64,000 nucleotides of DNA from Carboxylicivirga marina (GTDB taxonomy: Bacteria; Bacteroidota; Bacteroidia; Bacteroidales; Marinilabiliaceae). Under the pieces are notes generated by a model that saw only the letters and a program-made list of their open reading frames with translations, did not search any database and was not told where the DNA came from. The first letter of the stretch is position 1. Each line of letters starts with the position of its first letter. Positions 8,695 to 46,320 of this stretch are shown in pieces. The position numbers were made by a program, and so were the translations under genes. The stretch is from the NCBI RefSeq assembly GCF_016612505.1, contig NZ_JAENRR010000022.1, forward strand, positions 1 to 64,000, written 5' to 3'.

Positions 8695-9790
8695 ATGAAA
8701 CTCATCCTTTCGCTGTTTATCCTAACTATTCTGAGTGCCAAAATCTGCGCTCAAGATAAATTGTCGGTTTTCCGTGATAGTGCAGATTTAGCTTTTGATG
8801 TCAGTGATTTTTTAATATCCAAAAAAGGCTTGTTGCCTGTTCCGATGTTAATTACTGAGCCATCAGTTGGCTATGGTGGAGCTATGGCTTTACTGTACTT
8901 CCACGATTCGTATGAAAATAAAAAGCGACCACCGAGTATCACCGGAGGTTTTGGCGGGTATACCGAAAATGGAACATGGATGGCTGGTGCACTACATGCG
9001 GGCTTCTGGAACGAAGATAAGATACGATACCTGGGTGTCATTGGAAAGATCAATGTTAATATCGATTACTATGGCCGGCTTCCTAAACCGGTTGAAATGA
9101 ATATGAATACATGGATAATTCTGCAACAAATACAGTTTCGTTTGGCAGAAACTAATTTTTTTAGTGGACTTAAATATACACTAGCTCCAATCACAAATAC
9201 TTTTAAGCTGCCTATTGATATTCCTGAGTTCTCGGGTATTGAAATTGAAACGAGCGTTAGCGAGTTGTCGGCTATGTTTATTTATGACTCACGAAATAAT
9301 GTTATATCACCTACGAATGGTATTTGGGCGCAGGTATTAGGTATTTATAGTGATACATGGATGGGAGGAGAAGACCTGTATGGAAAAATTAACTCAAGTT
9401 TTATTGGAATTAAAGACGTCAATAGAAAATTGGTTATTGGAGGCAAACTTGTGGCCAATAGTAAGTTGGGCGATGTGCCATTTTATACCAGACCCTTTGT
9501 ACAACTGCGCAGTGCCATTTTTAAAGTATCAAGATAATAATGTACTGGCTTTTGAGGGAGAGGTGGACTGGAACGCGTATAAACGATGGCATCTCATTGG
9601 ATTTGCCGGCATGGGAACTGCTTTTAAAGATTATAGCGATATAAGTGATGGCAATAATGTTGTGAGTGGAGGCGGTGGTTTTCGCTATTTAATAGCCCGT
9701 AAGTTTGGAATGAAAATGGGAATGGACTTCGCCTTCAGTAAGGATGATTTCACCTTTTACATAACAATGGGGCATGCCTGGGCTTTTTAG
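8695..9790 (+). pseudogene. Frameshifted D15/BamA-like outer-membrane barrel
   Basis: Two overlapping frames make one protein. The first (8695-9537) has a signal peptide (ending CAQDK) and the first part of a POTRA-less D15-type barrel (VPMLITEPSVGYGGAMA), and runs to PFYTRPFVQLR before leaving frame and stopping. The +1 frame then continues with PFLKYQDNNVLAFEGEVDW and a complete barrel end (ITMGHAWAF) at 9790. The break lies near 9505-9515; one extra base or two missing bases explain it, and two added bases would restore the usual R-G-[IV]-P motif there. The paralogue at 4248 is intact. It may be a real inactivation or a sequencing error, since both parts are otherwise well preserved. Confidence 0.75.
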
Positions 9791-10109: not shown

Positions 10110-10868
10110 ATGAAGACAATTAAATTTGGTTTGTTATTGAGTTTAGCCGTTATATTATTTACTAGTTGTAATGAAGATGATGGTGGAATTAGTGCTCCGG
10201 GTAGTGAAGGACCACACGAAGGTGAAATAGTAAGTGTAGATTTATCGTATACCGATTTTATTGGTAACAATTTAAAGTCGGCAAGTACATATGATCCTGC
10301 AGCTGTTACTCATAATTATTTATCAACGGGCTATACAGTTGTTATCAAAGAATTATATGATTCTTCAACAGGACAGTTTGTAAATGAAACATGGACAGAT
10401 GTTGACTTAGCCAATCCGGGAATATCATTTGAGGCCATCGGATGGTTTGGTATTGAGGTGTCGCACCCTGATTATGCTGCAGTAGGAACAACGGCTTACT
10501 ATGGGGTAAATACACCAAGAGTTGATGTTGTAAGTGGCGGTAATGTAACAATTCCATTAGAGTTGTCGCAAGTATCTGTTCACCTGGCAAATGGCACAGG
10601 ACAAGAATTTAGTTCACAGATTCAATCAGCTACCATACAGGATGTTCCTGTAACGGCGTTTAATAGTCCCGTTTATGTAGAAGCCGAGGTTGACTATACT
10701 GTAAGTGTTACTTTCCAACACGACGGAGGTACAGATACTGCCACAAATTCAGGTTTAGCCGGAGAGGCATTTTACCATACAGTGCATGAACAAGAAGTGG
10801 GTCATGGTATCATCTTTGATTTACCAGTTTTTGACACACCAACTGATGGTGGTGGCATTGGACTATAA
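10110..10868 (+). CDS. Tandem paralogous lipoprotein 1, unknown family
   Basis: 252 residues. Lipoprotein signal ending FTSC (lipidated Cys20). The mature part shares a layout with the genes at 11721 and, more weakly, 10960: PGSEGPHEGE, a VDLSYTDF strand, HNYLSTGYTV, a 'DVDLANPGISFEAIGWFGIEV(S/T)HP' block, then VSVHLANGTGQEF, a PVYVEAEVDYTVSV strand, the N-SGLAGEAFYH-VHEQ block and a Gly-rich end (GGGIGL). It looks like two beta-sandwich-like halves. I do not recognise a named family. The cluster is on the plus strand, convergent with a MalT-like regulator. Likely exported to the outer membrane; possibly a surface-binding or sensing protein. Confidence 0.7.
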   Translation: MKTIKFGLLLSLAVILFTSCNEDDGGISAPGSEGPHEGEIVSVDLSYTDFIGNNLKSASTYDPAAVTHNYLSTGYTVVIKELYDSSTGQFVNETWTDVDLANPGISFEAIGWFGIEVSHPDYAAVGTTAYYGVNTPRVDVVSGGNVTIPLELSQVSVHLANGTGQEFSSQIQSATIQDVPVTAFNSPVYVEAEVDYTVSVTFQHDGGTDTATNSGLAGEAFYHTVHEQEVGHGIIFDLPVFDTPTDGGGIGL

Positions 10869-11700: not shown

Positions 11701-11720
11701 GGTTTAGTAAGATGTGTATC

Positions 11721-12482
11721 ATGAAAAAGACATATAAAATATTCGTTAGCTTGTTGGTCATAATTTCTTTTTATGCCTGTCAAGAGGAATTAATGGAAAG
11801 GCCTGGTAGTGAATTACCCCATGAAGGTAATGTATGTGAAGTGGACCTGACTTATACCAACTTTTCAGAACCAGTAGAGGTGCCTTTAAAGAGTACAACA
11901 AATGAAGATGAAATTCAGCATAACTACATCACTACGGGATATATAGTTGATATCCATGAACTTTATAATCCTGAAACGGGCATGTTTGAGGATAAGCGAT
12001 TTGAAAATGTAGATTTAACTGATCCGCAAATTACCTTCTCAGCCATTGGCTGGTTTGGTATTGAGGTAACTCATCCTGAATATGATGACAGAGCTTCTGG
12101 TAAAAAGGCTTATTATATAGTGAATAGAAAAGATATGCCGGTAGTTGAAGTAGGTGAGTATGAAATACCACTTGAGCTAGATCAGGTATCTGTTCATTTA
12201 GCAAACGGAACAGGACAAATATTCGATTCTCAAATATATAACGCTTCAATAAACGGTGTTAAGGTTGAAGATTATAATGTTCCGGTTTATGTTCCCAAGG
12301 AACTGGATTATGTTGTTTCTGTTTTATTCAGGCATAGTTATGAGGATGTGATGGTTCATAATAATGGACTAGCCGGACAAGCTTTTTATCACTTGGTGCA
12401 TGACCAAACTGTAGATAGTGGAATTGAATTTGAATTATCAACTTTTAAATTACCTGAAAAAGGGGAAGGAATAGGAAATTAA
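11721..12482 (+). CDS. Tandem paralogous lipoprotein 3
   Basis: About 253 residues. I use the ATG at 11721 (an in-frame ATG at 11712 is possible) because it gives a 20-residue lipoprotein signal ending FYAC. It is clearly homologous to the copy at 10110 along its whole length: PGSELPHEGN, VDLTYTNF, HNYITTGYIV, 'NVDLTDPQITFSAIGWFGIEV', VSVHLANGTGQIF, VPVYVPKELDYVVSV, NNGLAGQAFYHLVHDQ, GIGN. The terminator shared with the regulator gene follows directly. Unknown function; the conserved His residues (PHEG, VTHP, FYHLVHD) could bind metal, but that is speculation. Confidence 0.7.
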   Translation: MKKTYKIFVSLLVIISFYACQEELMERPGSELPHEGNVCEVDLTYTNFSEPVEVPLKSTTNEDEIQHNYITTGYIVDIHELYNPETGMFEDKRFENVDLTDPQITFSAIGWFGIEVTHPEYDDRASGKKAYYIVNRKDMPVVEVGEYEIPLELDQVSVHLANGTGQIFDSQIYNASINGVKVEDYNVPVYVPKELDYVVSVLFRHSYEDVMVHNNGLAGQAFYHLVHDQTVDSGIEFELSTFKLPEKGEGIGN

Positions 12483-30659: not shown

Positions 30660-30750
30660 GTTGGCTAATGTGTTTAATTAATTTATACTAAGCGAAGTAA
30701 GTCTATTGGTATATTTTTAGTTGATAAGTAGCGACCTAAACTCATATATT

Positions 30751-31647
30751 TTGAAAATTAAGATTAATGACCTTAGTCAGGTATATAAAAATGACTTCAG
30801 AGCACTTAATAAAGTAAATCTCGAAATTGATTCAGGCATGTTTGGCTTACTAGGTCCCAACGGAGCAGGTAAGTCTACATTAATGCGAATATTAGTTACT
30901 TTACTTCAGCCTAGTCATGGCGAAGTAATGGTAAATGATATGAAGCTATCAAAAAATCGCTCTGAAGTACGCTCGATGCTCGGGTATTTGCCTCAGGACT
31001 TTCGGTTTTTTGCGAAGTTAAGAACCTGGGAATTTCTCGATTACGCAGCATCATTGGCCGGTATCAGTAAGAAGAAAGAGCGCTTGGCTGCGGTAGATGA
31101 CTTATTAGAGCAAGTTGGTTTATTTGATGTTCGAAATCGTTATGCCAACAAATTATCCGGAGGTATGAAAAGGCGTTTAGGAATTGCTCAGGCTTTAATT
31201 GGCGATCCTAAAATTGTGATTGTAGATGAACCCACAACAGGTCTGGATCCTGAAGAACGTATACGTTTTCGTAATATTTTATCAAATCTGAGTCAAAAGG
31301 AAGTTATCATTATTCTTTCGACACATATTGTGGGAGATATTTCATCAACCTGCCGACAGATGGCCCTTCTTAATCGCGGGCAAGTTCATTTTAAAGGATC
31401 GCCTGAGCAGTTTATAAAACAATCTGAAGGTCATGTGTTTAAAACGAATGTATCGTTTGAGCAGATGAAAGTAATCAGTGAACAGTTTCCTGTGATTACA
31501 TCTGTGCCAGGCGTTGGTGGCTACGAGATTGAATTTGTAGCTAATGAGGTAGATGGGTGGGATACTACTTTGGTTGAGCCTAACCTTGAGCATGCCTACG
31601 TGTATTTTATGGAATATGTTGCTAACGAAAAATTCAAATACCAATGA
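30751..31647 (+). CDS. ABC transporter ATP-binding protein, first gene of the hybrid ABC-RND cluster
   Basis: About 298 residues. No ATG is usable; the TTG at 30751 gives MKIKINDLSQVYKN, a typical ATPase first strand with the A-loop Tyr12, whereas the frame also opens at a TTG at 30721. Walker A GPNGAGKST (35-43), Q-loop PQDF (81-84), signature LSGGM (135-139), Walker B IVIVDE (155-160), H-loop STHI. The tail after residue 215 is a small accessory domain like that of ABC-2-type export ATPases. It overlaps the permease gene at 31644 by four bases (translational coupling). The ATPase domain of the fusion protein encoded at 40887 is its closest relative in this window. Confidence 0.88.
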   Translation: MKIKINDLSQVYKNDFRALNKVNLEIDSGMFGLLGPNGAGKSTLMRILVTLLQPSHGEVMVNDMKLSKNRSEVRSMLGYLPQDFRFFAKLRTWEFLDYAASLAGISKKKERLAAVDDLLEQVGLFDVRNRYANKLSGGMKRRLGIAQALIGDPKIVIVDEPTTGLDPEERIRFRNILSNLSQKEVIIILSTHIVGDISSTCRQMALLNRGQVHFKGSPEQFIKQSEGHVFKTNVSFEQMKVISEQFPVITSVPGVGGYEIEFVANEVDGWDTTLVEPNLEHAYVYFMEYVANEKFKYQ

Positions 31648-34600
31648 TATCCCTATTTAATATTCGTACAGTCGCCCGTTTCGAGTCCAAAACACTTTTC
31701 AGAAGTTGGTTCTTTAGAATTTTTGCAATCATCATAATTGGTTTCATACTCATGTTTAACCTCTTTGGTTTAACAAGTATTGCCGACGGTGGATGGCCTG
31801 GAAGACTGCTACCTTCTGGTGCGCCATATTTTAATATGTGGATACTTAATATTGCTCAAGCTATTATTGCCGTTTTCTTGTCAGCAGATTTTCTGGGACG
31901 TGATAAAAAATTAGATACTACCGAAGCATTCTATGTTCGTAGCATGGCAAATTTTGACTATGTAATCGGTAAAACGATAGGAGTTTTAAAAGTTTTTATT
32001 ATTCTCAACATTTTCGTGTTGATGAGTGGCATATTATTCACCTTAATTGCCAATGAGGTAGCTGTTCCCTGGTTGTCGTATGTAATTTATCCTTTACTAA
32101 TTTCTTTACCGACTCTAATATTTGTTTTAGGCTTGTCATTCTTTACGATGACATTGGTTCGTAATCAGGCTGTTACCTTTGTGCTTTTGCTTGGTTTTAT
32201 AGCCTTGTCTTTATTTTATTTAGGAAACAAGCATTGGGGCTTGTTTGATATACTTGGGTTTTATACACCATTTATGCGCTCTGATTTTACTGGCTTTGAC
32301 GATTTATTGGGCTTAATATTACATCGCTCGGTATATTTGATTTTAGGGCTCATGTTTATCTTGGCCACCGTTTGGCGATTACCACGTTTAGAGCAACAAA
32401 AACTTAGTAAGCCCTTTTTGATTTCTTTCATGCTTCTAATGTTCTCTGGCGCTTGTTTTGGTGTGTTTAAAATAATTGCCAATGACACCACTAAGTCTAA
32501 TTTGCAAGTACATATAAAGGAACTAAATCAGAAACTAGTTAATTCGTCATATCGAATTGACAACTACGATGTGGCTCTTTTTCATCAAAATAAAGGCATC
32601 GATTGTAAGTTTTCAATGCAAATGTCAAAAAATGGTGTTGGGAATGACACTAAACTTGTATTAGCCTTGAATCCTGGATTGAAAGTTACGTCTTGTTCCA
32701 TTGACTCGGAATTAGTTAATTATACCCGTGAGGCACACTTGCTCAGCATTGAGCTTAATAGTAATGTAATAAGTAGTTTTCAGCTCGATTTATCTTACAG
32801 TGGTGTTATTATGGATGAGGCACTTTATCCTGATATTTCTGCTGAGACAAGAGATGCAGAGAATCGCTTAGACCCTTTGTTAGCTGGCAAGCAATATAGT
32901 TTTGTATTGCCTGATTATCTGCTTTTAACACGCGAAACCAACTGGTATCCGGTTGTTGCCAATAAACAATATTGGGTAAGTTACCCGTTTAATGAAATGA
33001 ACTTAACTGTTCATACGAAGCCAAGTTTAGAGGTTATTTCGCAGGGAGTGAAAGATAGTTTAGACGCTGGTAAATATCAATTTACATCAGAACACCCATT
33101 TAATGCCTATAGTGTAATTATTGGGGACTACGAGCGACATACAACCATGGTTGATAGCATTGAGTTTAGTCTATATCATCATAAAGAACACGACTTTTAC
33201 AAAGAGTATTTTACAGAGCTTAATGACACGGTATCCTTTGTTATAAAGGACATAAAAGATGATTTGGAACGTAAACTTGGTGTTAATTATCCATTTGATA
33301 GGTTTTCGGTTGTTGAAGCACCTATTAATATGTATTCCTATTTACGTAACTGGTCATTATCAACTGAGAGTGTCATGCCCGAAATGGTTTTGTTTCCTGA
33401 AAATGGTGGCGGAACATGGCAAAATGATTTAGATAATGTTCGCGGCCGCATCGATAGAAGAATGGATAGATCAAATGAAGAACGTTCTGAAAAGGAATTG
33501 CAGGTTGAGCTAATGAAAAACTATTTGGGTGATAACTTCATAAAGCCATCACGGTTCTTTTTTGGAAGACGACAAGAAGGTGAACGTCATGTCGAAAACT
33601 GGGGACGTTATCAGGTTTTTCCATTATACTTTACGTATGCCAACCGAATTGTGGAAGATGAATATCCACTCTTAACCATAGCACTTGAAAACTATTTGCA
33701 TCAGCGAATGAATGAAACCCGAATGCGTGATTTAGGAGGTCTGTCTAGTAATGATGAAGTGATACTCAAATTACGAAATAATAGCCTCAAAGAATTAATA
33801 GACAAGGAAGATGTTAATACACTTGGAAATGTATTTGCATCAAAAGGCAGTCAGTTATTCTCTAATTTAAAGGTTAATGTGGGGCATAGTTCTTTTGACA
33901 AACAGTTAGATGAGTTAATTCAGAGTAATCGTTTTGCTAATACCAGTATCAACGATTTTAATCGTTCAATAAGTAATATTAGTCAATCCGAATTCTCAAC
34001 AGTGTATTCTAACTGGCTCAATGAGGCTTATAGTCCGGCATTTTTATTTAGTTCGGCTGATGTATATGAAATTAAGGAAGGTAACCGTATGCGTTATTTT
34101 CTAAGAGTAAAAGTCGCTAATAGTGGTGATGCTGATGGAATAATGGCATTTACCATACGCGAAGGAATGCAAAGAGGAGGTCGCGGCCGCTTCCGTTCGC
34201 GCTTTCAAATGGATGCTAATGAGGATAATGAGCAAAGCTTTGTATTAAAAGCAGGACAAACCTATGAAATTGGCTTCTTGCTGGATGATGAACCACGTGA
34301 GGTATCTGTTAACACCTTTTTAGCAGCTAATATTCCTTCTAATCAGACCTTAATCATCAATAATGTGATTCGAAATAATAAAAAGGTTAAGTATTTTGAA
34401 GGGCTTAATGAAATCACCAGAGCTATAAAATTCAGCAGCGCAAATGAAATAATTGTTGATAACGAAGATGAAGGATTTTCTTTTGTCAACACCGGCGAAA
34501 GTCGTACGGTTAAAGACTGGTGGGTATCAATGCAGAATGAAGAGGAAGAAGAGAACGATACTTATGGTATGATACGTTTCTGGTCGCCTCCGGTAAGCTG

Positions 34601-34982
34601 GAAACCTATAGCTGGTGATAAATTCTTTGGCGAGTACTTAAAATCAGCAGTTTATAAAAGAAGTGGTAGCGGTGAAGGCTACGTGAATTGGAAAGCTGAC
34701 TTAACACAATCTGGCATGTACGAAGTTCATGCCTACATTCCTAATATTGCATCCAGATTTGGAAGAGGACGCAACTCTGGTAACAAGGATAATAACTATC
34801 GTTTTACTGTTTATCATGATGATGGTGAAGAACAGGTTGAAGTGACGGTTAATAACGATAATAATGGTTGGATATATCTTGGTGAGTATTATTTCTCAGA
34901 TGGAATGGCCAATGTAAAATTATCAGATGTTTCCACCAGTAGGTATGTGATTGGTGATGCTGTTAAATGGGTAAAAAAATAA
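31644..34982 (+). CDS. ABC-2-type permease fused to a degenerate M1-peptidase-like region and a golvesin-like domain
   Basis: 1112 residues. Residues 1-280 form an ABC-2-type membrane part with about seven helices. From about 290 to 810 an extracytoplasmic region resembles M1 aminopeptidases fused to ABC permeases: RETNWYPV (430-437), YPFDRFSVVEAP (549-560) and STESVMPEMVLFPE (573-586), where M1 enzymes continue into HExxH. No HExxH exists in the protein; the corresponding segment reads ENWGRYQVFPLYF, so it is probably not an active zinc peptidase. The end (about 1000-1112) is a golvesin-like beta domain (GMYEVHAYIP, GWIYLGEYYFSDG, VIGDAVKWV), expected to bind polymers or protein surfaces. 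It partners the ATPase gene that it overlaps. Confidence 0.8.
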   Translation: MISLFNIRTVARFESKTLFRSWFFRIFAIIIIGFILMFNLFGLTSIADGGWPGRLLPSGAPYFNMWILNIAQAIIAVFLSADFLGRDKKLDTTEAFYVRSMANFDYVIGKTIGVLKVFIILNIFVLMSGILFTLIANEVAVPWLSYVIYPLLISLPTLIFVLGLSFFTMTLVRNQAVTFVLLLGFIALSLFYLGNKHWGLFDILGFYTPFMRSDFTGFDDLLGLILHRSVYLILGLMFILATVWRLPRLEQQKLSKPFLISFMLLMFSGACFGVFKIIANDTTKSNLQVHIKELNQKLVNSSYRIDNYDVALFHQNKGIDCKFSMQMSKNGVGNDTKLVLALNPGLKVTSCSIDSELVNYTREAHLLSIELNSNVISSFQLDLSYSGVIMDEALYPDISAETRDAENRLDPLLAGKQYSFVLPDYLLLTRETNWYPVVANKQYWVSYPFNEMNLTVHTKPSLEVISQGVKDSLDAGKYQFTSEHPFNAYSVIIGDYERHTTMVDSIEFSLYHHKEHDFYKEYFTELNDTVSFVIKDIKDDLERKLGVNYPFDRFSVVEAPINMYSYLRNWSLSTESVMPEMVLFPENGGGTWQNDLDNVRGRIDRRMDRSNEERSEKELQVELMKNYLGDNFIKPSRFFFGRRQEGERHVENWGRYQVFPLYFTYANRIVEDEYPLLTIALENYLHQRMNETRMRDLGGLSSNDEVILKLRNNSLKELIDKEDVNTLGNVFASKGSQLFSNLKVNVGHSSFDKQLDELIQSNRFANTSINDFNRSISNISQSEFSTVYSNWLNEAYSPAFLFSSADVYEIKEGNRMRYFLRVKVANSGDADGIMAFTIREGMQRGGRGRFRSRFQMDANEDNEQSFVLKAGQTYEIGFLLDDEPREVSVNTFLAANIPSNQTLIINNVIRNNKKVKYFEGLNEITRAIKFSSANEIIVDNEDEGFSFVNTGESRTVKDWWVSMQNEEEEENDTYGMIRFWSPPVSWKPIAGDKFFGEYLKSAVYKRSGSGEGYVNWKADLTQSGMYEVHAYIPNIASRFGRGRNSGNKDNNYRFTVYHDDGEEQVEVTVNNDNNGWIYLGEYYFSDGMANVKLSDVSTSRYVIGDAVKWVKK

Positions 34983-35005: not shown

Positions 35006-36481
35006 ATGAAGAAAATGATTGTGGTAACGACCATGTTACTAATTACAAGTGTAGCATTCGTTCAGGGACAGCGGTTAATGACACTGAATCAATCGGTGGA
35101 AGAAGCCTTAAAAAGCAGTCCGCAAATTGTACGAATGCGTTTAGGGCTTGAACGAACACGAGAATTGTTAAACGCACAGAGGGCGTCGCTACGTTCGAAT
35201 TTCAGATTAAACCTTAATCCATATGTCTATTCCAATAACCGACAGTATGATGAGTTTAACCAGCAATGGTTTACTTCGGAAAGTACTCAGAGTAACGGAA
35301 CATTAAGTATTACGCAACCTGTAATTTGGACAGATGGTACGATTTCCTTAGAAAATACTTTTGGTTATCGTGATAACTACAGTACATCCTCTGCTAATTC
35401 ATTTGAGGGCTTCAGTAATAACCTTCGCCTCACGGTTAATCAGCCGCTTTTTACATATAATCGTACAAAAATGACGCTGAAAGAGCTGGAGTTTGATCAT
35501 GAAAATGCCAAACTTAATTATGCTTTAGAAGCCCTTAATGTAGAGCAACAAATTACACAATATTTTTACCAGATATATCAGAAACAGATGGAACTCATCA
35601 CTTCGCGCGAGGAGTGGGAAAATCGTAAAAAGAGTTATGATATAATCAGCAATAAGGTAGAAGCCGGTTTAACCGCCAAGGAAGAACAGTTACAGGCCGA
35701 ATTGGACATGATGACCAGCCAGTCTACCGTGCAAAATAATGAAGTAGAATTGGAGAATATCAAAGATAATTTTAAGCAAATGCTTGGATTATCGCTCTCT
35801 GAAGAGATTATGGTAATTGCTGAGGTATCTGTTCTGCCGGTTGACATTGATTTAGGCATGGCCACAAATTTTGCGCTAAGTAATCGCATGGAAATACGTC
35901 AACGCCAGATAGATATTGAGACCGGAAAATTTGATATCATTAAAACCAATGCCACCAATGAGTTTAAAGGAAATGTTAATGTGTCGGTAGGTTTATTTGG
36001 TGAAAATGAGTCGATAAAAGGCATTTATGATAATCCGAATGATAATGAGGATGTACGCTTTAGCCTGGAAGTACCTTTATTCGATTGGGGCGAAAAGAAA
36101 GCACGAATGCGAGCGGCCGAAGCATCCTTAAAAACCAGCGAGTACAATTTACAGGATGAGCAGAAGACCATCCGTTTAAATATTCGCAAAATTAATCGTG
36201 GTATTGATAATACACTTATTCAAATAGATATTGCGCGAAAAAATGAGGAGAATGCACAGCTTACTTATGAAATTAACCTTGAGAAATACCGCAATGGTGA
36301 TTTAACAAGTATGGATCTTAACCTCTTTCAAAATCAGCTGACACAAAAGAAAAACGCATTAACCAACGCATTAATTAATTATAAACTGGAGCTTCTTAAT
36401 ATGAAGTTACAGACCTTGTATGACTTTGAAATGCACCGCAGTATAATTGACGATGTAATGAAATATGAAATGATTCAATAA
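35006..36481 (+). CDS. TolC-family outer-membrane efflux protein
   Basis: 491 residues with a signal peptide (about 1-21, FVQGQ). It shows the duplicated TolC pattern of long helices and strands: LNQSVEEALKSSPQI at the first half start, a FSLEVPLFDWGEKKARMRAAEASL block in the second half (key parts: EVPLFDWG, AEASLKTSE) and long amphipathic helices with many Gln/Asn/Glu. It forms the trimeric outer-membrane duct of tripartite pumps. Its position between the ABC module and the adaptor/RND genes indicates that both may feed the same duct. Confidence 0.9.
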   Translation: MKKMIVVTTMLLITSVAFVQGQRLMTLNQSVEEALKSSPQIVRMRLGLERTRELLNAQRASLRSNFRLNLNPYVYSNNRQYDEFNQQWFTSESTQSNGTLSITQPVIWTDGTISLENTFGYRDNYSTSSANSFEGFSNNLRLTVNQPLFTYNRTKMTLKELEFDHENAKLNYALEALNVEQQITQYFYQIYQKQMELITSREEWENRKKSYDIISNKVEAGLTAKEEQLQAELDMMTSQSTVQNNEVELENIKDNFKQMLGLSLSEEIMVIAEVSVLPVDIDLGMATNFALSNRMEIRQRQIDIETGKFDIIKTNATNEFKGNVNVSVGLFGENESIKGIYDNPNDNEDVRFSLEVPLFDWGEKKARMRAAEASLKTSEYNLQDEQKTIRLNIRKINRGIDNTLIQIDIARKNEENAQLTYEINLEKYRNGDLTSMDLNLFQNQLTQKKNALTNALINYKLELLNMKLQTLYDFEMHRSIIDDVMKYEMIQ

Positions 36482-36512: not shown

Positions 36513-37589
36513 ATGATAAATAAAAATTCAATACTTCGATATAGCTCAATCATTCTTCTCGCATTGATTGTGACACTGATGGTTTCATGTAAAAATGAAG
36601 CTTCAAGTTTTAATACCGATGTTGCGGTTAATGTGTCTGTTCAAGAGGTGAAGAAGAAGCCCATTGAACAAACCCTGATTACTACAGGGTCGATAAAACC
36701 TCAGTTGGAAGCCAATCTTAAAACGGAGCTTACTGCTCACTATTATTTACAAACTAACCCAAAAACGGGTAAGCCTTTTAAAATGGGCGATAGAGTAAAA
36801 AAAGGACAGCTCATCATTCTTTTGGAAGACCAGGAATATACCAATAATGCCAACCTCGATGGAGCACATCTGGACATGGAGATTTCAGAAATGGAATATG
36901 AAAAACAACAAGCCTTATTTGAAAAAGGTGGTGTTACAAAGCGTGAGTTGGTGAATTCTGAAAAAACATTGCTAACATCAAAGCAAACATACCAAAATGC
37001 TGAGCTTAGTATTGAAAAGCTGAATATTCGTTCTCCTTTTGACGGCGTGATAACTGATTTGCCTTATTTTTCTCCGGGTATCCGTGTTGACAATGCCACA
37101 GCAGTGTTGAGTTTAATGAACTATTCAACCATGATGATGGATTTGAGCATGCCGGAAAACCTGCTAGGTCAGGTACGCATTGATCAGCAAGCCAACATTA
37201 TGAATTATGCCTTACCCAATGATACCTTAAAAGGTCGTATCACTGAATTGTCGCCTGCTATCGACATGGAGGCGCGCACATTCAAAGGACGATTAAAAGT
37301 TGATAATCATAGTGCATTATTGAAACCAGGAATGTTTGTTAAGGCCGAAATTGTGGTTGATCAGCGCGATAGTGCATTGGTCATACCTAAAGATGTGATC
37401 TTATCCGAAGGTAACCGAAGAATGGTATTTGTAGCTAAAAACTCTGCAGCTCAAAAACGTTATATCCGCACAGGGCTGGAAACGCTAACTGAAATTGAAG
37501 TGTTGGAAGGTTTGAAACCCGATGAACGCCTGATTATTAAAGGCTTTGAAACATTAAAGGATCGTTCGAAAGTGAAAGTCGTAAAGTAA
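36513..37589 (+). CDS. RND efflux periplasmic adaptor subunit (membrane fusion lipoprotein)
   Basis: 358 residues, lipoprotein signal ending MVSC (Cys26). The order is standard for HlyD/AcrA adaptors: first half of the lipoyl (biotinyl-like) domain (LKTELTAHYY, GDRVKKGQLIILLED), a short helical hairpin (about 115-160), the second lipoyl half (IRSPFDGVI), then beta-barrel and membrane-proximal domains ending GFETLKDRSKVKV. It bridges an inner-membrane RND pump to TolC. It lies 31 bases behind tolC and 184 bases before the RND gene. Confidence 0.9.
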   Translation: MINKNSILRYSSIILLALIVTLMVSCKNEASSFNTDVAVNVSVQEVKKKPIEQTLITTGSIKPQLEANLKTELTAHYYLQTNPKTGKPFKMGDRVKKGQLIILLEDQEYTNNANLDGAHLDMEISEMEYEKQQALFEKGGVTKRELVNSEKTLLTSKQTYQNAELSIEKLNIRSPFDGVITDLPYFSPGIRVDNATAVLSLMNYSTMMMDLSMPENLLGQVRIDQQANIMNYALPNDTLKGRITELSPAIDMEARTFKGRLKVDNHSALLKPGMFVKAEIVVDQRDSALVIPKDVILSEGNRRMVFVAKNSAAQKRYIRTGLETLTEIEVLEGLKPDERLIIKGFETLKDRSKVKVVK

Positions 37590-37773: not shown

Positions 37774-40700
37774 ATGAGATCAATTTCTCGTTTTTCGGTT
37801 AATTACCCGGTTACAGTGTTGATGATTGTTTTAGGTATCATCTTATTGGGTGGTATCTCACTTTCACGACTAGGAACTGATTTGTTTCCCGATCTTCAAA
37901 ATCCAAGGATTTATGCCGAAATCATTTCAGGAGAGCGTTCGCCCGAAGAAATAGAAAAACGCTTTGTTGAACAGGTTGAAGCATTAGCGGTGCGTCAAAG
38001 TGGAGTTTTGAATGTTTCATCGGTAAGCCGGGTAGGTGCGGCCATTGTTACTGTTGAGTACGATTGGGGGAAAGATATTGATGAGGCTTTCCTTGACCTT
38101 CAGAAAGCTTTAACACCTGTTAGCCAGAATGAAGATGTAGAAGAACTTAATATTTCTCGTTTTGATCCGAATGCATCGCCTGTTATAAAAGCAGCTTTTA
38201 GTCATAATGAGGTCGATGACATGAATGCCCTGCGTAAAGTAGCAGAGAATTACATTCGTAACGAACTGATTCGCATTGAAGGTATTGCTGATATTCGTAT
38301 CTCGGGTGAAGAAAATGCCGAAGTAATGGTTGTCGCCGATCCGCATTTGCTTGATGTGAATAACCTGACCACCACATCCTTATTGAATACCATTAATAAT
38401 TTCAATCAGAATGTGTCTGGTGGCTCTATTGAAGAAATGGGCCAACGTTATATTATTAAAGGTTTAAGCTCATTATCGGCTCTTCATGATGTTGAAAACC
38501 TGGTGGTTAAATTGAATCAGAATGGTACGGAAGATATCCAACAGGGGGCAAGTCAGGCAACTTCAACTGAAACATCGCCAGTGCTTTTGAAGGATGTAGC
38601 TGTTGTTAAGCTGCAAAATAGAGAACCGGAAAGCATTGTCCGTATAAACGGACAAAGGTGTTTAGGTATTTCCATTTATAAAGAAACCCGATTTAATACG
38701 GTTGCGGCCGTAGAGAAATTAGAAGAAGCATTTACCGGCATTCAACAACGTTTGCCAGGATATCAATTGCAAGTAGTCAATAATCAGGGAGCTTTTATCC
38801 AAAGTGCCATAGGTGAGGTACAGGAGAGTGCACTACTGGGTATTATTCTCGCGGTTTTTGTATTGTTTATTTTCTTGCGTCGTTTTGGCGTTACGCTGAT
38901 TATTAGTCTGGCGATTCCGGTATCCATTATTGCTACTTTTAATTTAATGTACTTTAATGGTTTAACACTCAATATAATGACCTTGGGTGGTTTGGCTCTG
39001 GGAGCTGGTATGTTAGTTGATAATGCCATTGTGGTAGTTGAAAACATTGTCAGGAAAATTGAAGAAGGACTTCCGGTTAAGCAAGCAGCCATTGAGGGCA
39101 CATCAGAAGTAGGTGGGGCTCTAACAGCATCAACACTAACCACCATTGTTGTATTTCTTCCCATCGTATATTTGCACGGTGCTTCGGGTGAATTATTTAA
39201 GGATCAGGCCTGGACAGTGGCGTTCTCCTTGTTATCATCTTTAGTGGTGGCGCTGCTGGTTATACCGGTGTTAAGCAAATATGTATTTAAAGGTAGTGAA
39301 AGAAAAACTCCGGTGAATAAGCCAACAGAGACAGGGTTTAAAGCTTATCATCGTTTCTTAACAAGGGTCTTGAATAACAGAGCATATATTTTAGTTGGAG
39401 CATTATGTATTATCGCTGTTACAGCATGGATATTGCCCCGTGTTGGAAGTGAGTTTATGCCTGAGATACAATCCAATGAAGTAACCATTGAAACTGTTTT
39501 TCCTGCTGGTACATCACTTAATAAAACGGATGTTACGCTTATTCAAATGGAGCAAATGGTTATGGATGCTTTTGGTGATAAGCTGAAATGGATATACACA
39601 CATGCCGGACCAGAAACTTCTGGCGAAACAGCTTCAACATCAGAGCAGGGCGAAAATACGGGCTTTATAAAGCTGGTATTAAAAGATGAAGTGCATGCGT
39701 CATTTACTCAGGTTGTAGCGGTCTTAAACGAGCTTTTTGGAAGTGTAAGCGGACTTGAAATGCGCTTTGTGCAAGAACAATCGGCCATTCAAACATTACT
39801 TGGGAACGACGAAGCTCCTTTAGTAATCGAAATTGAAGATAATAATTCCGATAATTTGGAGGAGTCAGCTATTTTGGTAACCGAGAGTATCCGACAAAAT
39901 ACTGAGATATACAATGTTAAAAGTTCATTTGAAGATGGTGCGCCTGAGGTAAACGTAGTGATTGATCGTATAAGGGCTGGTATCTTTAACCTGGATGTAT
40001 CAAGCATTATGAGCAACCTGTCTAACTACCTTTCCTCAAAGGATGGCGGAAGCATGGAGATCAATGGCGATTTAACCGACATAACTCTTGAAACGCCTGA
40101 TGTCAGACTTAATGAATTGGCCGATTTGAAAATTTCACAAGGCGATAAGGATGTCCTATTATCAGAAGTAGCAACAATATCAATTGGTCAGGCACCACGA
40201 GAAGTATTACGAAACAATCAAAAACGAGTGATTCGTATATCGGCTATGGTAACTGATAACAGACCTTTTGATCATTTTGCAGCCGATTTAGAACAGTCAA
40301 TTCAACAACTAAATATTAACCCAACATCAACAGTAAGTATTTTGGGTGAAGAAGAGAAGCGTAAAGAAGCTTTTGGAAGCCTTCAGTTTGCGCTTATTTT
40401 GTCAATCATTTTGGTATACATGGTAATGGCTTCGCAGTTTGAATCATTGTTACATCCGTTTACCATATTGTTAACCATTCCTTTGGCAGGAGTTGGTGCT
40501 GTTTGGGCTTTTTACATCTTAGGTCATACTTTTAATATTATGGCCTACATTGGTATTGTAATGTTAGCTGGTATTGCGGTTAACGACTCCATTATACTGG
40601 TGGATGCTATCAATCAGTATAAAAAGGGAGGAATGTCCTTAAAAGATGCTGTTATTGCTGCAGGTCAGCAACGTGTCAGGCCAATATTAATGACCAGTTT

Positions 40701-40875
40701 AACCACTATTTTAGCTCTGGTGCCCTTGACGTTCGGATTTGGTGATAGTGCCTCATTACGTGCGCCAATGGCCATTGCAGTTATTGGAGGTCTGGTTACA
40801 TCGACGCTATTAACGTTGGTGGTGATACCTTGTGTGTATTTTGTGTTTGACCACTTATTTAACCGAACCAAATAG
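37774..40875 (+). CDS. RND efflux transporter permease (AcrB-like)
   Basis: 1033 residues, the usual length. It has the RND layout: first helix (SVNYPVTVLMIVLGIILLGG-like start at residues 8-28), porter domain, six helices with LGAGMLVDNAIVVVENI near residues 405-425 (Asp of the proton relay, with Asn in place of the second Asp), a second porter domain, and a second bundle ending GGLVTSTLLTLVVIPCVYF. It uses proton import to export hydrophobic or amphiphilic compounds through the adaptor and TolC. The next gene starts 11 bases later and encodes another RND protein, so the two may form a hetero-trimer, as in some other pumps with two permeases. Confidence 0.92.
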   Translation: MRSISRFSVNYPVTVLMIVLGIILLGGISLSRLGTDLFPDLQNPRIYAEIISGERSPEEIEKRFVEQVEALAVRQSGVLNVSSVSRVGAAIVTVEYDWGKDIDEAFLDLQKALTPVSQNEDVEELNISRFDPNASPVIKAAFSHNEVDDMNALRKVAENYIRNELIRIEGIADIRISGEENAEVMVVADPHLLDVNNLTTTSLLNTINNFNQNVSGGSIEEMGQRYIIKGLSSLSALHDVENLVVKLNQNGTEDIQQGASQATSTETSPVLLKDVAVVKLQNREPESIVRINGQRCLGISIYKETRFNTVAAVEKLEEAFTGIQQRLPGYQLQVVNNQGAFIQSAIGEVQESALLGIILAVFVLFIFLRRFGVTLIISLAIPVSIIATFNLMYFNGLTLNIMTLGGLALGAGMLVDNAIVVVENIVRKIEEGLPVKQAAIEGTSEVGGALTASTLTTIVVFLPIVYLHGASGELFKDQAWTVAFSLLSSLVVALLVIPVLSKYVFKGSERKTPVNKPTETGFKAYHRFLTRVLNNRAYILVGALCIIAVTAWILPRVGSEFMPEIQSNEVTIETVFPAGTSLNKTDVTLIQMEQMVMDAFGDKLKWIYTHAGPETSGETASTSEQGENTGFIKLVLKDEVHASFTQVVAVLNELFGSVSGLEMRFVQEQSAIQTLLGNDEAPLVIEIEDNNSDNLEESAILVTESIRQNTEIYNVKSSFEDGAPEVNVVIDRIRAGIFNLDVSSIMSNLSNYLSSKDGGSMEINGDLTDITLETPDVRLNELADLKISQGDKDVLLSEVATISIGQAPREVLRNNQKRVIRISAMVTDNRPFDHFAADLEQSIQQLNINPTSTVSILGEEEKRKEAFGSLQFALILSIILVYMVMASQFESLLHPFTILLTIPLAGVGAVWAFYILGHTFNIMAYIGIVMLAGIAVNDSIILVDAINQYKKGGMSLKDAVIAAGQQRVRPILMTSLTTILALVPLTFGFGDSASLRAPMAIAVIGGLVTSTLLTLVVIPCVYFVFDHLFNRTK

Positions 40876-40886
40876 AGTTGGCAGGT

Positions 40887-43800
40887 ATGAGAGAATTAAT
40901 AAATCGAAAAGTACTTGTCAGCATGTTGTTTGTGGCACTCACCATGTTGGGTGTTATTTCATACAGACAATTGTCCTTTGAATTGTTGCCCAATACTGAA
41001 TATCCTCTACTGTTTGTGCAGGTAAGAGCTAGTACCGAATTGGATCCTTTGCACATGGAACAAGAAGGAGCCATACCTGTTGAAGGCATCATAAGTACTT
41101 TGGAAGGCATTGAGAAAATAGAAACACGGGTGCGACCAGGGCAAGCCATGATTTTGGTATACCTTTCGCGTAATGCTGACGTCAAATACAGTTATCTCAA
41201 ACTTGTTGAGAAGATCGAGGGTGCGTCAAACGTTCTACCTGAAACAATGATGGCTCAAGTGTTTAAAGCTGATGTGGAGCAAGTTAATAGTCAGTTTATG
41301 ACTGTTCAGGTCAGGGGTGAAGGTGGTGTTGACCGTATTAGAAATGTCATCGAGCAAGATATAAAAAGTAAACTCGAAAGTGTTGATGGTGTTTCATCGA
41401 TTCAGGTTTCTGGTGGTCGGCAAAAATCAGTTGAAATCATTTGTCGTCAGGATGTATTGGATAGTTATGGCTTAACATCCGGCCGCATTCGCCAATTGAT
41501 TACTTCCGGACAGAATGAGAAAGTTTTCGCCGGGAAAGTAGTGAAAGGTCAAATGCAATATTATGTCACTGCTGAGGCTGACTATAATCGCATTAGTGAT
41601 GTGGAGAATATTGTGGTGAAGGCTGATGGACCAGTACTGTTAAAAGATGTAGCGCAAGTAAACTTTAGTGTTAAAGAAGATGATTCATACAGTCGTGTGA
41701 ATGGTATGGAATCGGTGTCAATTTCTATTGCGAAAGATGCCCAGGTCAACATGATTGATTTATCAGAGAATACCATTCATTTGATTGATCAGATAAACGA
41801 CGAATATAAAGCCAATGGAATTGAGCTGGTTGTAGTTAGTAATCAGGCTGAAACAATGGAAAGTAATCTCGATTCAATTATTGAGTTAGCTTTTGTAGGT
41901 GGCATATTGGCCATATTTGTTTTATGGATATTCTTAAACAATATTCCGTTAGTAGGAATGGTAATGCTATCTGTTCCACTTTCGGTATATGGAGCATTTA
42001 ACTTTTTCTTTGCCAGCGATATTTCAATTAATGTGTTAACCTTGGTTGGATTGGCATTAGCCATTGGTATGTTGCTCGATAATAGTGTGGTAGTGATGGA
42101 GAATATCTATCGCGTTGCATCAACTGGCAGGCATTCAGGAGAGGATAGTGTGGTTAAGGGAACCAAAGAAGTGTGGCGCTCGGTAACAGCTGCCACCTTA
42201 ACAACAATCTCTGTATTTCTACCATTTGTTTTCTCAGAGCAGATGATTTTCAGAGAAATAGCGAAACACATTAGTGTATCCATAATTTCAACTTTGGTGG
42301 TGTCATTGCTAGTGGCATTAATCCTTATTCCAATGCTTTCCCATTTATTCCTGTCAGGGATAGTACGAAATCGCATTGAAGCTCTGGAGAAGCTGGATTT
42401 ACACAATAAACTGGTGCAGTACTATATTTTGCTGTTAAAAGCTACATTACGTCGACCTGCAGTAACCATTATTGGTATTTTGCTTGTGTTTTTTGTAGTT
42501 CTCATTGTTAGTATTGGTGTTAGTGTAACAACACAACAAGAGGCCGAAACCAAAGAGTTTAACATTAGCGTTGAGATGTCAGCAGGCTCCATGTTATCTA
42601 ATACTGACAAGGTGGTGCGTGAAATTGAGAACCGATTGGCAGATATTGAAGAGAAGGAGGATGTAGTGGCTCAGGTTTACGAAGATGAGGCCAGCATTTC
42701 TGTTATTCTGAAAGAAGACTATCAAAAAATTGCCAAACGCTCCATTCCTGAAATTCGGGCTGACATACAAGAGCGCATTGATGAAGTGGAGGGCGGGGAG
42801 ATTAGTCTTTCACAAAGTTCAACATCGGCCATGGGTGGCAATGGTGCTTTTGGTTCAAACCCTGGTTTAGGTATGATGATGTTTCTTGGTTTGGGTGAAC
42901 AGGAAGAAAAGGTGGTAATCAAAGGGGAGGACTATGACCAAATGCTCATGGTGGCCAATGATATTAAATACTATTTAGAGAACAATATTGATAACCTGCA
43001 GCGTGCCCGTATATCTAGCTCCAATAAACGACCGGAAGTTCATTTAGATATGGATGGTTATTTAATGGGGCTTATGAATATTTCACCTAATAACGTGGCA
43101 TCTGAATTATTTACTTTTCGTTCAGAAGTGAGTTCAGGCGGGCAATTGAAAGTTGATAATGAGACCTATGACATCATCATGAAGACGGTGGATGATGACC
43201 GTTTAGATGAAATACCGGCCAAAACAATGGATGACTTGCAAAAGTTAAACATCACCAATAATCAGGATGCTATTGTGCCACTGCGAGATTTCTCAGAAAT
43301 AAACTACGCATCCGGGCGTACGGAGATAATGCGTGTTAATCAGGAGAAAGAGATAGAAGTAACTTACCGCTTCTCTGATGAAGTAAATAACTCAAAAACC
43401 ATATTGGAAGATGCTCGTTTGCAAGTGGATGAACTAGTGGCTTCAATTCCGGTTTCTTCAAAGGTATCCTTAAAGGTGATACATGAAGAAGACATGTTTG
43501 CCGAGTTTAAGTTTTTAGGCTTAATTGGCTTGCTGTTAGTATTTATGATATTAGCATCGGTGTTTGAATCTTTAACTGCGCCGGTAGTGATGCTCTTTTC
43601 TGTTCCTTTGGCTGCTATAGGCTCATTATTAGCCTTGGTGCTAACAGGTAATTCACTGCTCAATATCAACACATTCATTGGTTTCCTGATTTTACTCGGA
43701 GTGGTGGTCAATAATGGGATTTTGCTGATTGACTATTCGCGACAGCTTAGACGAGAAGGTTATAATCATGCCCGTGCATTGATGCAAGCAGGTATCTCTC

Positions 43801-45614
43801 GTATTCGACCTATAACCATTACAGCCATAACCACAATTATAGCTATGATGCCATTGGCTATGGGGAAATCGGAATACGTAGGTGTTTTAGGGGCGCCCTT
43901 TGCCATTACAGTAGTTGGCGGATTAAGTTTTAGTACCCTGTTAACGTTGGTATTTATGCCAACATTTGCCTTTGGTCTAGACAGTGCATTGGGGTGGATT
44001 CGTAGCCTTCAATTTTGGCTGAAAATGCTCATTTATGTATTATGGACGGGCGGATTAGCTTTGGTTTATTTTTATTCAGATGCCTCATTTGCCTGGCAAA
44101 TGCTTTATGGAGTGTTGATAATTAGTGGTGTTCCGTCTATCGTGTATTTTGTGAAATCATCATTGCGAATGGCAAGTGCTAATTTATTGAAGCCTGAGGA
44201 AGAAGTGAATATCACCATTCGTAATCTGGTGAAAGTATACGACAGAGATACCCAGTTTATTCGTGAATATAAAGCACGTTTGAAAAAGCAAAGGGACATC
44301 GATTCTTCAAAAAATAAATCGAAAAGACAGTTTATTAAGCAATTGGTTTGGCAAGTGCCATTATTTGGTTTTGCCATCTACTTTACCTGGTGGTACCTCG
44401 ATACCGTTTTATGGGGGTTGGTGTTCACCATCCTTAATTATTTCTTTTTCAAACAGGTTTATAATGATTGGTTTAGGTCAAATGAAAAACAAAACCGTTT
44501 TGTAAATCTGCTTGGCAAATTAATAAACCTTGGTTATCCGGCCATTGGAATGGTGATACTTGCAATGCATTGGAGTGCCCTTTCTCTTGCCATAGTTGTG
44601 GGTGTTTTATGGTATTTATTATTAATACTAGTTCACTCTGGCAAGAAATTGAAAAGTGAAAAAGTAAACATTGAACGTATTACCGGACGATTTGCTGGCT
44701 GGCGACGTTCATATTACCGCTTATTAAGAAGTATGCCTGGTATAGGTAAACAAAAGACACCATTCAAGGCGCTTAAAGGCATTTCATTGGAGTTTAAAAC
44801 GGGTATGATTGGTTTGCTCGGCCCCAATGGTGCTGGTAAAACGACTTTAATGCGAATTATCTGTGGCGTATTGGAACAAAGCTATGGTAAAGTATATATC
44901 AATGGCTATGATACAGCAGAAAAGCGTGAAGAACTGCAAGGGATTATTGGTTATTTGCCGCAGGAGTTTGGAACTTATGAAAATATGTCTGCATTTGAGT
45001 TTCTGGATTATCAGGCTATTGTAAGAGGAATTACTGAAGCTGCACTTAGAGAAGAACGTTTAGAGTATGTGTTAAAATCAGTGCATATGTGGGAGCGAAA
45101 GGACGATAAAATTGGCTCGTTCTCAGGTGGTATGAAACAGCGAATTGGTATTGCTATGATTTTGCTTCATCTGCCAAAAATATTGGTTGTTGATGAACCA
45201 ACGGCAGGTTTGGATCCACGCGAACGTATTCGTTTTCGAAATTTATTGGTTGAGTTAAGTCGCGAGCGTATTGTTTTATTCTCAACACATATTATTGAAG
45301 ATATATCAAGTTCGTGTAATCAGGTAGCGGTAATGAGCAAAGGAGACCTGAAATATTGGGGCGAGCCAAGTCAAATGGTTAATATAGCCAACAATAAAGT
45401 ATGGCAATTTGATATTAAAGCCGAGGATTTTGAATCGGTTAATAAGCAACATTTGGTAGTACATCATATGCGAGACAGAGAAAATATCAGAGTACGTTGT
45501 ATTGCTAATAGTAAACCGGTGGAGGATGCTGTTGGCGTAAGTGCCGTTTTAGAAGATGCCTATATCTGGTTATTAAAAAACAATTTAAGGAAACACTCAG
45601 ATGACAAACATTAA
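40887..45614 (+). CDS. RND permease fused to a membrane-split ABC ATPase domain
   Basis: 1575 residues from the ATG at 40887 (the frame opens at a TTG at 40878). Residues 1 to about 1030 are a complete RND permease (LALAIGMLLDNSVVVMENIYR motif, final LVFMPTFAF). Then two helices (about 1040-1085) precede NITIRNLVKVY (1108-1118), which looks like the first strand and A-loop Tyr of an ABC domain. It is followed by about 175 residues with a charged stretch and four to five membrane helices. The ABC domain resumes at KALKGISLEF (1294), with Walker A GPNGAGKTT (1312-1320), signature SFSGGMKQR (1411-1419), Walker B ILVVDEPTAGLD (1432-1443) and H-loop STHII. All catalytic motifs are intact. The frame is continuous over 4.7 kb. 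The gene overlaps the next permease gene by 14 bases. Confidence 0.9.
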   Translation: MRELINRKVLVSMLFVALTMLGVISYRQLSFELLPNTEYPLLFVQVRASTELDPLHMEQEGAIPVEGIISTLEGIEKIETRVRPGQAMILVYLSRNADVKYSYLKLVEKIEGASNVLPETMMAQVFKADVEQVNSQFMTVQVRGEGGVDRIRNVIEQDIKSKLESVDGVSSIQVSGGRQKSVEIICRQDVLDSYGLTSGRIRQLITSGQNEKVFAGKVVKGQMQYYVTAEADYNRISDVENIVVKADGPVLLKDVAQVNFSVKEDDSYSRVNGMESVSISIAKDAQVNMIDLSENTIHLIDQINDEYKANGIELVVVSNQAETMESNLDSIIELAFVGGILAIFVLWIFLNNIPLVGMVMLSVPLSVYGAFNFFFASDISINVLTLVGLALAIGMLLDNSVVVMENIYRVASTGRHSGEDSVVKGTKEVWRSVTAATLTTISVFLPFVFSEQMIFREIAKHISVSIISTLVVSLLVALILIPMLSHLFLSGIVRNRIEALEKLDLHNKLVQYYILLLKATLRRPAVTIIGILLVFFVVLIVSIGVSVTTQQEAETKEFNISVEMSAGSMLSNTDKVVREIENRLADIEEKEDVVAQVYEDEASISVILKEDYQKIAKRSIPEIRADIQERIDEVEGGEISLSQSSTSAMGGNGAFGSNPGLGMMMFLGLGEQEEKVVIKGEDYDQMLMVANDIKYYLENNIDNLQRARISSSNKRPEVHLDMDGYLMGLMNISPNNVASELFTFRSEVSSGGQLKVDNETYDIIMKTVDDDRLDEIPAKTMDDLQKLNITNNQDAIVPLRDFSEINYASGRTEIMRVNQEKEIEVTYRFSDEVNNSKTILEDARLQVDELVASIPVSSKVSLKVIHEEDMFAEFKFLGLIGLLLVFMILASVFESLTAPVVMLFSVPLAAIGSLLALVLTGNSLLNINTFIGFLILLGVVVNNGILLIDYSRQLRREGYNHARALMQAGISRIRPITITAITTIIAMMPLAMGKSEYVGVLGAPFAITVVGGLSFSTLLTLVFMPTFAFGLDSALGWIRSLQFWLKMLIYVLWTGGLALVYFYSDASFAWQMLYGVLIISGVPSIVYFVKSSLRMASANLLKPEEEVNITIRNLVKVYDRDTQFIREYKARLKKQRDIDSSKNKSKRQFIKQLVWQVPLFGFAIYFTWWYLDTVLWGLVFTILNYFFFKQVYNDWFRSNEKQNRFVNLLGKLINLGYPAIGMVILAMHWSALSLAIVVGVLWYLLLILVHSGKKLKSEKVNIERITGRFAGWRRSYYRLLRSMPGIGKQKTPFKALKGISLEFKTGMIGLLGPNGAGKTTLMRIICGVLEQSYGKVYINGYDTAEKREELQGIIGYLPQEFGTYENMSAFEFLDYQAIVRGITEAALREERLEYVLKSVHMWERKDDKIGSFSGGMKQRIGIAMILLHLPKILVVDEPTAGLDPRERIRFRNLLVELSRERIVLFSTHIIEDISSSCNQVAVMSKGDLKYWGEPSQMVNIANNKVWQFDIKAEDFESVNKQHLVVHHMRDRENIRVRCIANSKPVEDAVGVSAVLEDAYIWLLKNNLRKHSDDKH

Positions 45615-46320
45615 AAGCATAGCCAGCCTTAAATTACTTCTTAAGTTTATCAAGTATAACCTTAAGATAGTTTTCGGAAACAAATTTGTGTATTTCTTAG
45701 GAGCATCACTTATATTCTACCTTTTAATTACTTCCATTAGCTTGTTTGCAGCCGATTCAGTTAGTGTCGAAGGAGTATATTATCAGTTAATGTTCCCTGC
45801 TTTTTTGCTCATCTTTTTTCCGACTACTTATGGCATTCAAAACGATGAAGATGCACGTATTCTCGAAATCTTATTTGGTATACCTAATTATCGCTATAAA
45901 ATATGGTTGGTCAGACTGGTGATGGCCTTTTTTATGGTCTTTTGGTTTATCTTTTTAATGACTAACCTTAGTAGTTTTTTGCTCATTAATATTCCAGTTT
46001 GGGAAATGACTTTACGCCTTATGGTTCCAGTGCTACTATTCGGTATGTTAGGATTCTTTTTTAGCACCGTGGTAAAAAATGGTAACGGAACGGCTGTTGT
46101 GGTGGTAATAATTGGTTTGCTGGTATGGCTGTTTACCGAATTCATGGAAGGAAGTCCCTGGAATGTGTTTTTAAATCCGTTTGATTTGCCATCAGGTATG
46201 AGTGAGATAGTATGGGATAGTGTTGTGTTAAAACATATGCGAACATGGCTTATAGTTGCATCTGTAGCATCTCTTTGGGGATTGCTTAACCTTCAGAACA
46301 GAGAGAAGTTTATAAAATAA
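45601..46320 (+). CDS. ABC-2-type transporter permease
   Basis: 239 residues with six predicted membrane helices (about 25-50, 62-78, 98-122, 130-155, 160-180 and 212-230) and short loops, the topology of ABC-2 permeases. The segment DEDARILEILFGIPNYRYKI is charged and probably cytosolic, where the coupling helix to an ATPase would sit. It starts 14 bases inside the preceding RND-ABC fusion gene, which argues that it is the membrane partner of that fusion's ATPase domain. A terminator follows and ends the cluster. Confidence 0.78.
   Translation: MTNIKSIASLKLLLKFIKYNLKIVFGNKFVYFLGASLIFYLLITSISLFAADSVSVEGVYYQLMFPAFLLIFFPTTYGIQNDEDARILEILFGIPNYRYKIWLVRLVMAFFMVFWFIFLMTNLSSFLLINIPVWEMTLRLMVPVLLFGMLGFFFSTVVKNGNGTAVVVVIIGLLVWLFTEFMEGSPWNVFLNPFDLPSGMSEIVWDSVVLKHMRTWLIVASVASLWGLLNLQNREKFIK

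Follow-up and report, generated by a model that had tools for sequence, protein, structure and literature searches.

An RND permease fused to an ABC ATPase with a putatively split nucleotide-binding domain, encoded in a conserved seven-gene cluster of Carboxylicivirga marina

A single reading frame in Carboxylicivirga marina raises the question of whether an RND pump and an ABC ATPase can be genuinely combined in one polypeptide and, if so, which transporter the ATPase would drive. The frame lies at 40887-45614 on the forward strand of the window, i.e. the whole 64,000-nucleotide stretch analysed from contig NZ_JAENRR010000022.1, and is open over 1575 codons from an ATG start, with an in-frame TTG 9 bases upstream of that ATG. 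An initial annotation had proposed that it encodes both an RND permease and an ABC ATPase, and this was borne out by Pfam domain calls at a cut-off of E <= 0.001: ACR_tran spans residues 4-1027 (E 4.8e-151), i.e. a full-length RND permease domain of the HAE-1 type, ABC_tran covers residues 1296-1440 (E 2.6e-28), and all the ATPase motifs are present. The 262-residue linker between the two domains (residues 1031-1292) matched no Pfam family at this cut-off when searched alone. The parts and motifs of the fusion are as follows.

40887..43976, + strand: RND part, residues 1-1030 (frame and Pfam)
44013..44177, + strand: pair of additional membrane helices following the RND fold, residues 1043-1063 and 1068-1097 (AF2 model and hydropathy)
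44211..44240, + strand: putative first ATPase strand with the A-loop Tyr, residues 1109-1118 (conservation, profile scan and AF2 model)
44241..44762, + strand: predicted insert within the ATPase domain, residues 1119-1292, consisting of a helix, four long helices and a helix (AF2 model)
44763..45611, + strand: ATPase core, residues 1293-1575 (Pfam, NCBIfam and motifs)
Residue 1113: segment NLVKVY
Residue 1294: segment KALKGISLEF
From residue 1312: GPNGAGKT (Walker A)
Residue 1356: YLPQ (Q-loop)
Residue 1413: SGGMKQR (signature)
Residue 1433: LVVDEPT (Walker B)
Residue 1466: STH (H-loop)

The patterns for the Walker A, Q-loop, signature, Walker B with its Glu, D-loop and H-loop were intact in all 44 fused ATPases compared. 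A separate internal start for the ATPase was considered and rejected, as within positions 1262-1299 only 1269 and 1279 hold a plausible start Met in at least three of the 44 members (3/44 and 9/44, respectively).

A search of other genomes for the same RND-insert-ABC order, which had been suggested with the initial annotation, recovered homologues both within the order and in two further phyla, supporting a genuine fusion. Within the order, a search with the linker found it in 23 of 198 sampled genomes, its own included, the other 22 matches being 26-38% identical to the query; the fused frame was open over 1536-1640 residues in 18 of these 22, and over a shorter 567-1252 residues in the remaining four (G022, G011, G088 and G137). 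Among 395 genomes drawn broadly from the phylum, a linker profile found matches in 7, or in six, the genome under study included, once G265 is dropped, whose match (52 residues with three stops) was not counted as a fused member. Records carrying the linker included, among the matches listed, Carboxylicivirga, Prolixibacter, Draconibacterium, Marivirga, Parabacteroides, Bacteroides sp. 224, Proteiniphilum and Odoribacter, along with records titled Zixiibacteriota and Latescibacterota; in the phyla of these last two relatives the linker was found in 9/132 and 2/16 genomes, respectively. The fused members among the matches listed (L033-L060) overlap in part with a second set of fused loci, the pairs L122/L034, L123/L051 and L133/L050 lying on contigs of equal length. 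Because the same fused frames are open in many independent genomes, in one case on a 3.4 Mb contig, an assembly join can be excluded, and an artefact of assembly or annotation in any form, for which no evidence emerged, appears vanishingly improbable. Carriage on plasmids was also rejected, the linker having no match in the plasmid collection searched.

The second claim of the initial annotation, that the nucleotide-binding domain is split by a membrane insert, was supported by conservation, profile scanning and structure prediction. The segment at 1109-1118 carries a first strand and A-loop Tyr as in 28 ordinary ABC ATPases compared, and I1109, K1116 and Y1118 are invariant in 53 of 53 aligned fused members. 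The A-loop aromatic, present in every one of these 53, does not lie with its strand directly before the ATPase core, the position used to define an ABC domain; the stretch between them has a median length of 177 residues and a minimum of 111 (measured in 42 of 44 members). When a 12-residue first-strand profile built from the 28 ordinary ATPases was scanned over 44 members, its top position in the linker was the 1109-1118 site in 40, and its top position over the whole protein was this site in 37. An AF2 model of residues 1031-1575, the structure prediction that had been suggested at the outset (27 sequences, pLDDT 81.6, pTM 0.66), placed helices at 1043-1063 and 1068-1097, then the strand 1109-1118, then insert helices at 1123-1141, 1146-1170, 1174-1196, 1204-1229, 1232-1257 and 1270-1282, followed by a strand at 1293-1303 and the ATPase fold. 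Since 1109-1118 is the only strand within 1031-1292 of this model, it should pair with the ATPase core, and its packing there would follow from the predicted strand assignment. The alternative that the 1109-1118 motif is coincidental, with the ATPase complete from 1293 onward, draws on the four members in which the profile's top linker position lies elsewhere (L122, L123, L053 and L058) and on seven of the other 40 in which 12 to 39 of 200 shuffled linkers reached the profile score. However, at most two of 200 shuffled linkers did so in 28 of the 40, and with the invariant residues and the sole model strand also against it, this alternative is highly improbable.

The membrane helices claimed for the insert were likewise recovered, with four helices long enough to cross the membrane in the AF2 model and three of them clear by hydropathy. 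Both insert ends would be cytoplasmic, as would the loop joining helices 2 and 3; this predicted topology fits the distribution of charge: the loops placed in the cytoplasm hold on average 10.5, 3.5 and 9.6 Lys and Arg in 48, 15 and 37 residues, and those placed outside, which are only 6 to 7 residues long, hold 0.5, 0.5 and 1.1. A Pfam search of the insert relaxed to E <= 1 gave nothing usable. At one locus (L135, genome G078) the insert is 111 residues long against the median of 177, with a complete gene cluster around it; this shortened insert amounts to a natural deletion experiment.

What matters most for the context of the fusion is a gene cluster that was absent from the initial annotation. 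The fusion is the sixth of seven genes, in the order ABC308, PermM1, TolC, MFP, RND1, fusion and ABC2p, and the start of ABC2p overlaps the end of the fusion gene. The other six are listed below.

30721..31647, + strand: ABC308, stand-alone ABC ATPase, first gene, with an unsplit first strand (ABC_tran E 2.6e-31)
31644..34982, + strand: PermM1, with seven hydrophobic segments followed by an M1-like domain that has no HEXXH and by a terminal Golvesin_C domain (Pfam and hydropathy)
35006..36481, + strand: TolC-type outer membrane factor (OEP E 9.2e-36)
36513..37589, + strand: MFP, membrane fusion protein (periplasmic adaptor; HlyD_D23 E 8.7e-21)
37774..40875, + strand: RND1, RND permease without extra domains (ACR_tran E 2e-212)
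45601..46320, + strand: ABC2p, 239-residue permease resembling ABC-2 / type V exporters (Foldseek of model)

The stand-alone ATPase had been cited earlier as an adjacent 308-codon protein in which the two pieces of the domain are directly joined; the joined pieces are as described, but the gene is not adjacent, being the first of the run and approximately 9 kb upstream. All seven genes occurred in this order in 19 of 20 loci with wide flanks, the exception (L132) having a contig end in the second gene. In the 28-locus set, where contig ends truncate L036 and L060, ABC2p followed the fusion in 27 loci and RND1 preceded it in 26. Of seven regions fetched from the two further phyla, five are wide, come from the phylum of the Zixiibacteriota-titled relative and all hold the seven genes; ABC2p also follows the fusion in G607, from the phylum of the Latescibacterota-titled relative. 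The cluster contains TolC and MFP partner genes for RND docking and, as in MdtBC-like systems, a single MFP gene accompanied by two distinct RND genes. No MacB-type family was matched at E <= 0.001 in the eight proteins examined. A role in anti-phage defence was rejected, as PADLOC matches were confined to the ATPase parts with none in PermM1 or ABC2p.

Elsewhere in the window, two overlapping forward-strand frames (8695-9537 and 9350-9790) appear to be the pieces of a single broken gene, spanning 8695-9790, for a barrel-type outer membrane protein whose end resembles 4248-5312, and the forward-strand frames 10110-10868 and 11712-12482 are similar and lipoprotein-like, probably paralogues.

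Two proteins of the cluster are candidate partners for the ATPases. PermM1 matched Golvesin_C (E 1.8e-14) and, below the family cut-off, Peptidase_M1 (E 2e-4), with HEXXH absent from all 19 PermM1 proteins; it has no ABC-2 match in Pfam, and its seven hydrophobic segments are presumed here to be ABC-2-like. The ABC2p model (pLDDT 87.7) has more helices than the four segments given by hydropathy, and 41 of the 50 Foldseek matches listed for it were ABC exporters or permeases, the other nine being unrelated. Among the matches listed, PmtCD came first, NosY had the top TM-score (0.62), and ABCG25, ABCG2 and ABCG5/8 were also present; the top matches had probabilities of approximately 1, with a best E-value of 0.076 and none reaching 0.001. 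No confident Pfam ABC-2 match was obtained in six ABC2p proteins, also at E <= 1, and a conserved stretch at approximately 78-105 is taken by us to resemble the ABC-2 motif. Comparison of ABC2p with the N-terminus of PermM1 by HHalign gave a probability of 0.16% (E 0.36).

The ABC2p profile and the linker picked out an identical set of 23 among the 198 genomes, with a single ABC2p match in each; the two share a contig in 22 of them and lie on different contigs in G098. Four genomes (G182, G014, G136 and G187) hold full-length PermM1 relatives without a linker or ABC2p. In each the start of the cluster is present and the contig ends inside it, so these are probably incomplete assemblies rather than real absences of the linker and ABC2p. 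Extra copies of PermM1 without the cluster neighbours were observed twice in G178 and once in G088 (with a stop), and PermM1 fragments occur in G190; the PermM1 copies at L149, L150 and L152, the last with a stop, have neither the first-gene ATPase nor RND genes beside them.

Because ABC2p always accompanies the linker, the fused ATPase may well drive ABC2p rather than its own RND half. In the alternative reading, the ATPase would act on the RND half to which it is joined, with ATP powering or gating the RND cycle and either replacing or adding to the proton drive. Beyond the covalent fusion itself, this reading draws on the proton-relay residues, which are given here in AcrB numbering, with the register set by an alignment to MexB; among solved structures, MdtB gave the lowest E-value for the RND half, and MexB was the other leading match. 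The position of D408, the second TM4 Asp, is Asn in 25, Ser in two and Thr in one of 28 members, and that of K940, the TM10 Lys, is Asn in all 28, such that neither is ever Asp or Lys. However, the equivalents of D407 (D398 in the fusion, the first TM4 proton-relay Asp) and R971 are kept in 28/28. Further, five additional RND proteins encoded in the genome were compared: Asn occupies the D408 and K940 positions alike in RND1 and L008, and the K940 position in L004, whereas L005 and L006 have Asp and Arg at the two positions; substitutions of this kind therefore occur without a fusion. Together with the presence of ABC2p whenever the linker is found, this leaves direct action on the RND half unlikely.

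Among solved structures, the lowest E-values of the fused ATPase were to ABCA transporters, with TM_1403, NosF and LptB further down, and Foldseek of the ATPase model returned the same groups with TM_1403 first. GldA and DrrA are the nearest NCBIfam families, yet the fused ATPase falls far under both cut-offs (170.5 vs 402.6 and 166.2 vs 312.45 bits, respectively). In the first-gene ATPase, the motif patterns were present in 20 of 20 ABC308 orthologues. The idea that the fused ATPase arose from the first-gene one was considered and dropped: a tree taking 23 of the 44 fused rows recovered the fused (23/23) and first-gene (20/20) ATPases each as one clade and gave no resolved branching between the two. 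In this tree the row from the genome under study (L007) is a faulty translation, with an end branch of 4.96.

Several known systems share part of this arrangement. The type V (ABC-2) exporters NosDFY, PmtCD, ABCA and ABCG are like the fused ATPase and ABC2p in sequence or fold, but their ATPases are not known to be joined to an RND permease or interrupted by membrane helices. MdtABC and MuxABC likewise have a single MFP and, side by side, two distinct RND genes, and neither is known to include an ATPase fusion, permeases of the ABC class or additional helices. The passages of PMC12802153 in which MdtB2C is reported as the active MdtABC heterotrimer mention none of these. Passages of PMC8277102 describe MacAB-TolC as an ABC-driven system that exports through a TolC duct and has its ATPase fused to the permease; unlike the fusion cluster, it has no RND part.

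With a rough probability of 0.6, the cluster encodes a hybrid trans-envelope exporter in which the fused ATPase drives an ABC-2-like permease tethered to the RND pair. The ATPase would be anchored at the membrane by the inserted helices together with the additional helix pair that precedes its first strand, and its partner would be either the first-gene ATPase or another fused ATPase. The cluster holds two ATPases and, on this interpretation, the same number of ABC-2-like permeases, so that a single mixed pair or two matched pairs could form. Hydrolysis of ATP by the fused ATPase would drive ABC2p, and perhaps also the permease part of PermM1. Through the covalent tie, the ABC unit would sit next to an RND1/RND2 assembly that docks on MFP and TolC, and substrate leaving the inner membrane would enter a single duct across the envelope. 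The formation of such a complex, its hydrolysis of ATP, the hand-over step and the direction of transport are parts of this reading that we infer.

A more elaborate version, tentative and based on analogy, is a doubly powered exporter in which an ATP step over the inner membrane would precede a proton-driven RND step through TolC, with the insert coupling the two cycles. In this version, one RND1 and two fusion chains would place paired ATPases under two ABC-2-like permeases; the hypothetical 1:2 ratio, as in MdtB2C, would bring exactly two fused ATPases together. Another possibility is that the fusion is only a tether, holding two independent transporters of one substrate together in equal numbers. 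Each unit does have its parts, the RND proteins with MFP and TolC and the ATPases with permeases, but both the fusion and its insert persist in aligned members drawn from the phyla of three groups with different titles, and no unfused version of the cluster was found in the loci examined, so a mere tether appears decidedly improbable. The hybrid exporter, in which the fused ATPase acts on ABC2p, is the preferred reading.

No description of an RND-ABC fusion was found in the literature searched (titles and the starts of abstracts of published papers), although protein databases may list the domain order. Within tripartite export, RND pumps are regarded as one energy class and ABC transporters as another; the conserved fusion joins the two. 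The split domain would be a new example of a nucleotide-binding domain taking a large insert, and the fusion would provide a natural system in which the coupling of proton-driven and ATP-driven steps could be tested. As the fusion is carried by records of Parabacteroides, Bacteroides sp. 224, Proteiniphilum, Prolixibacter and Carboxylicivirga, its study in cultured species is possible.
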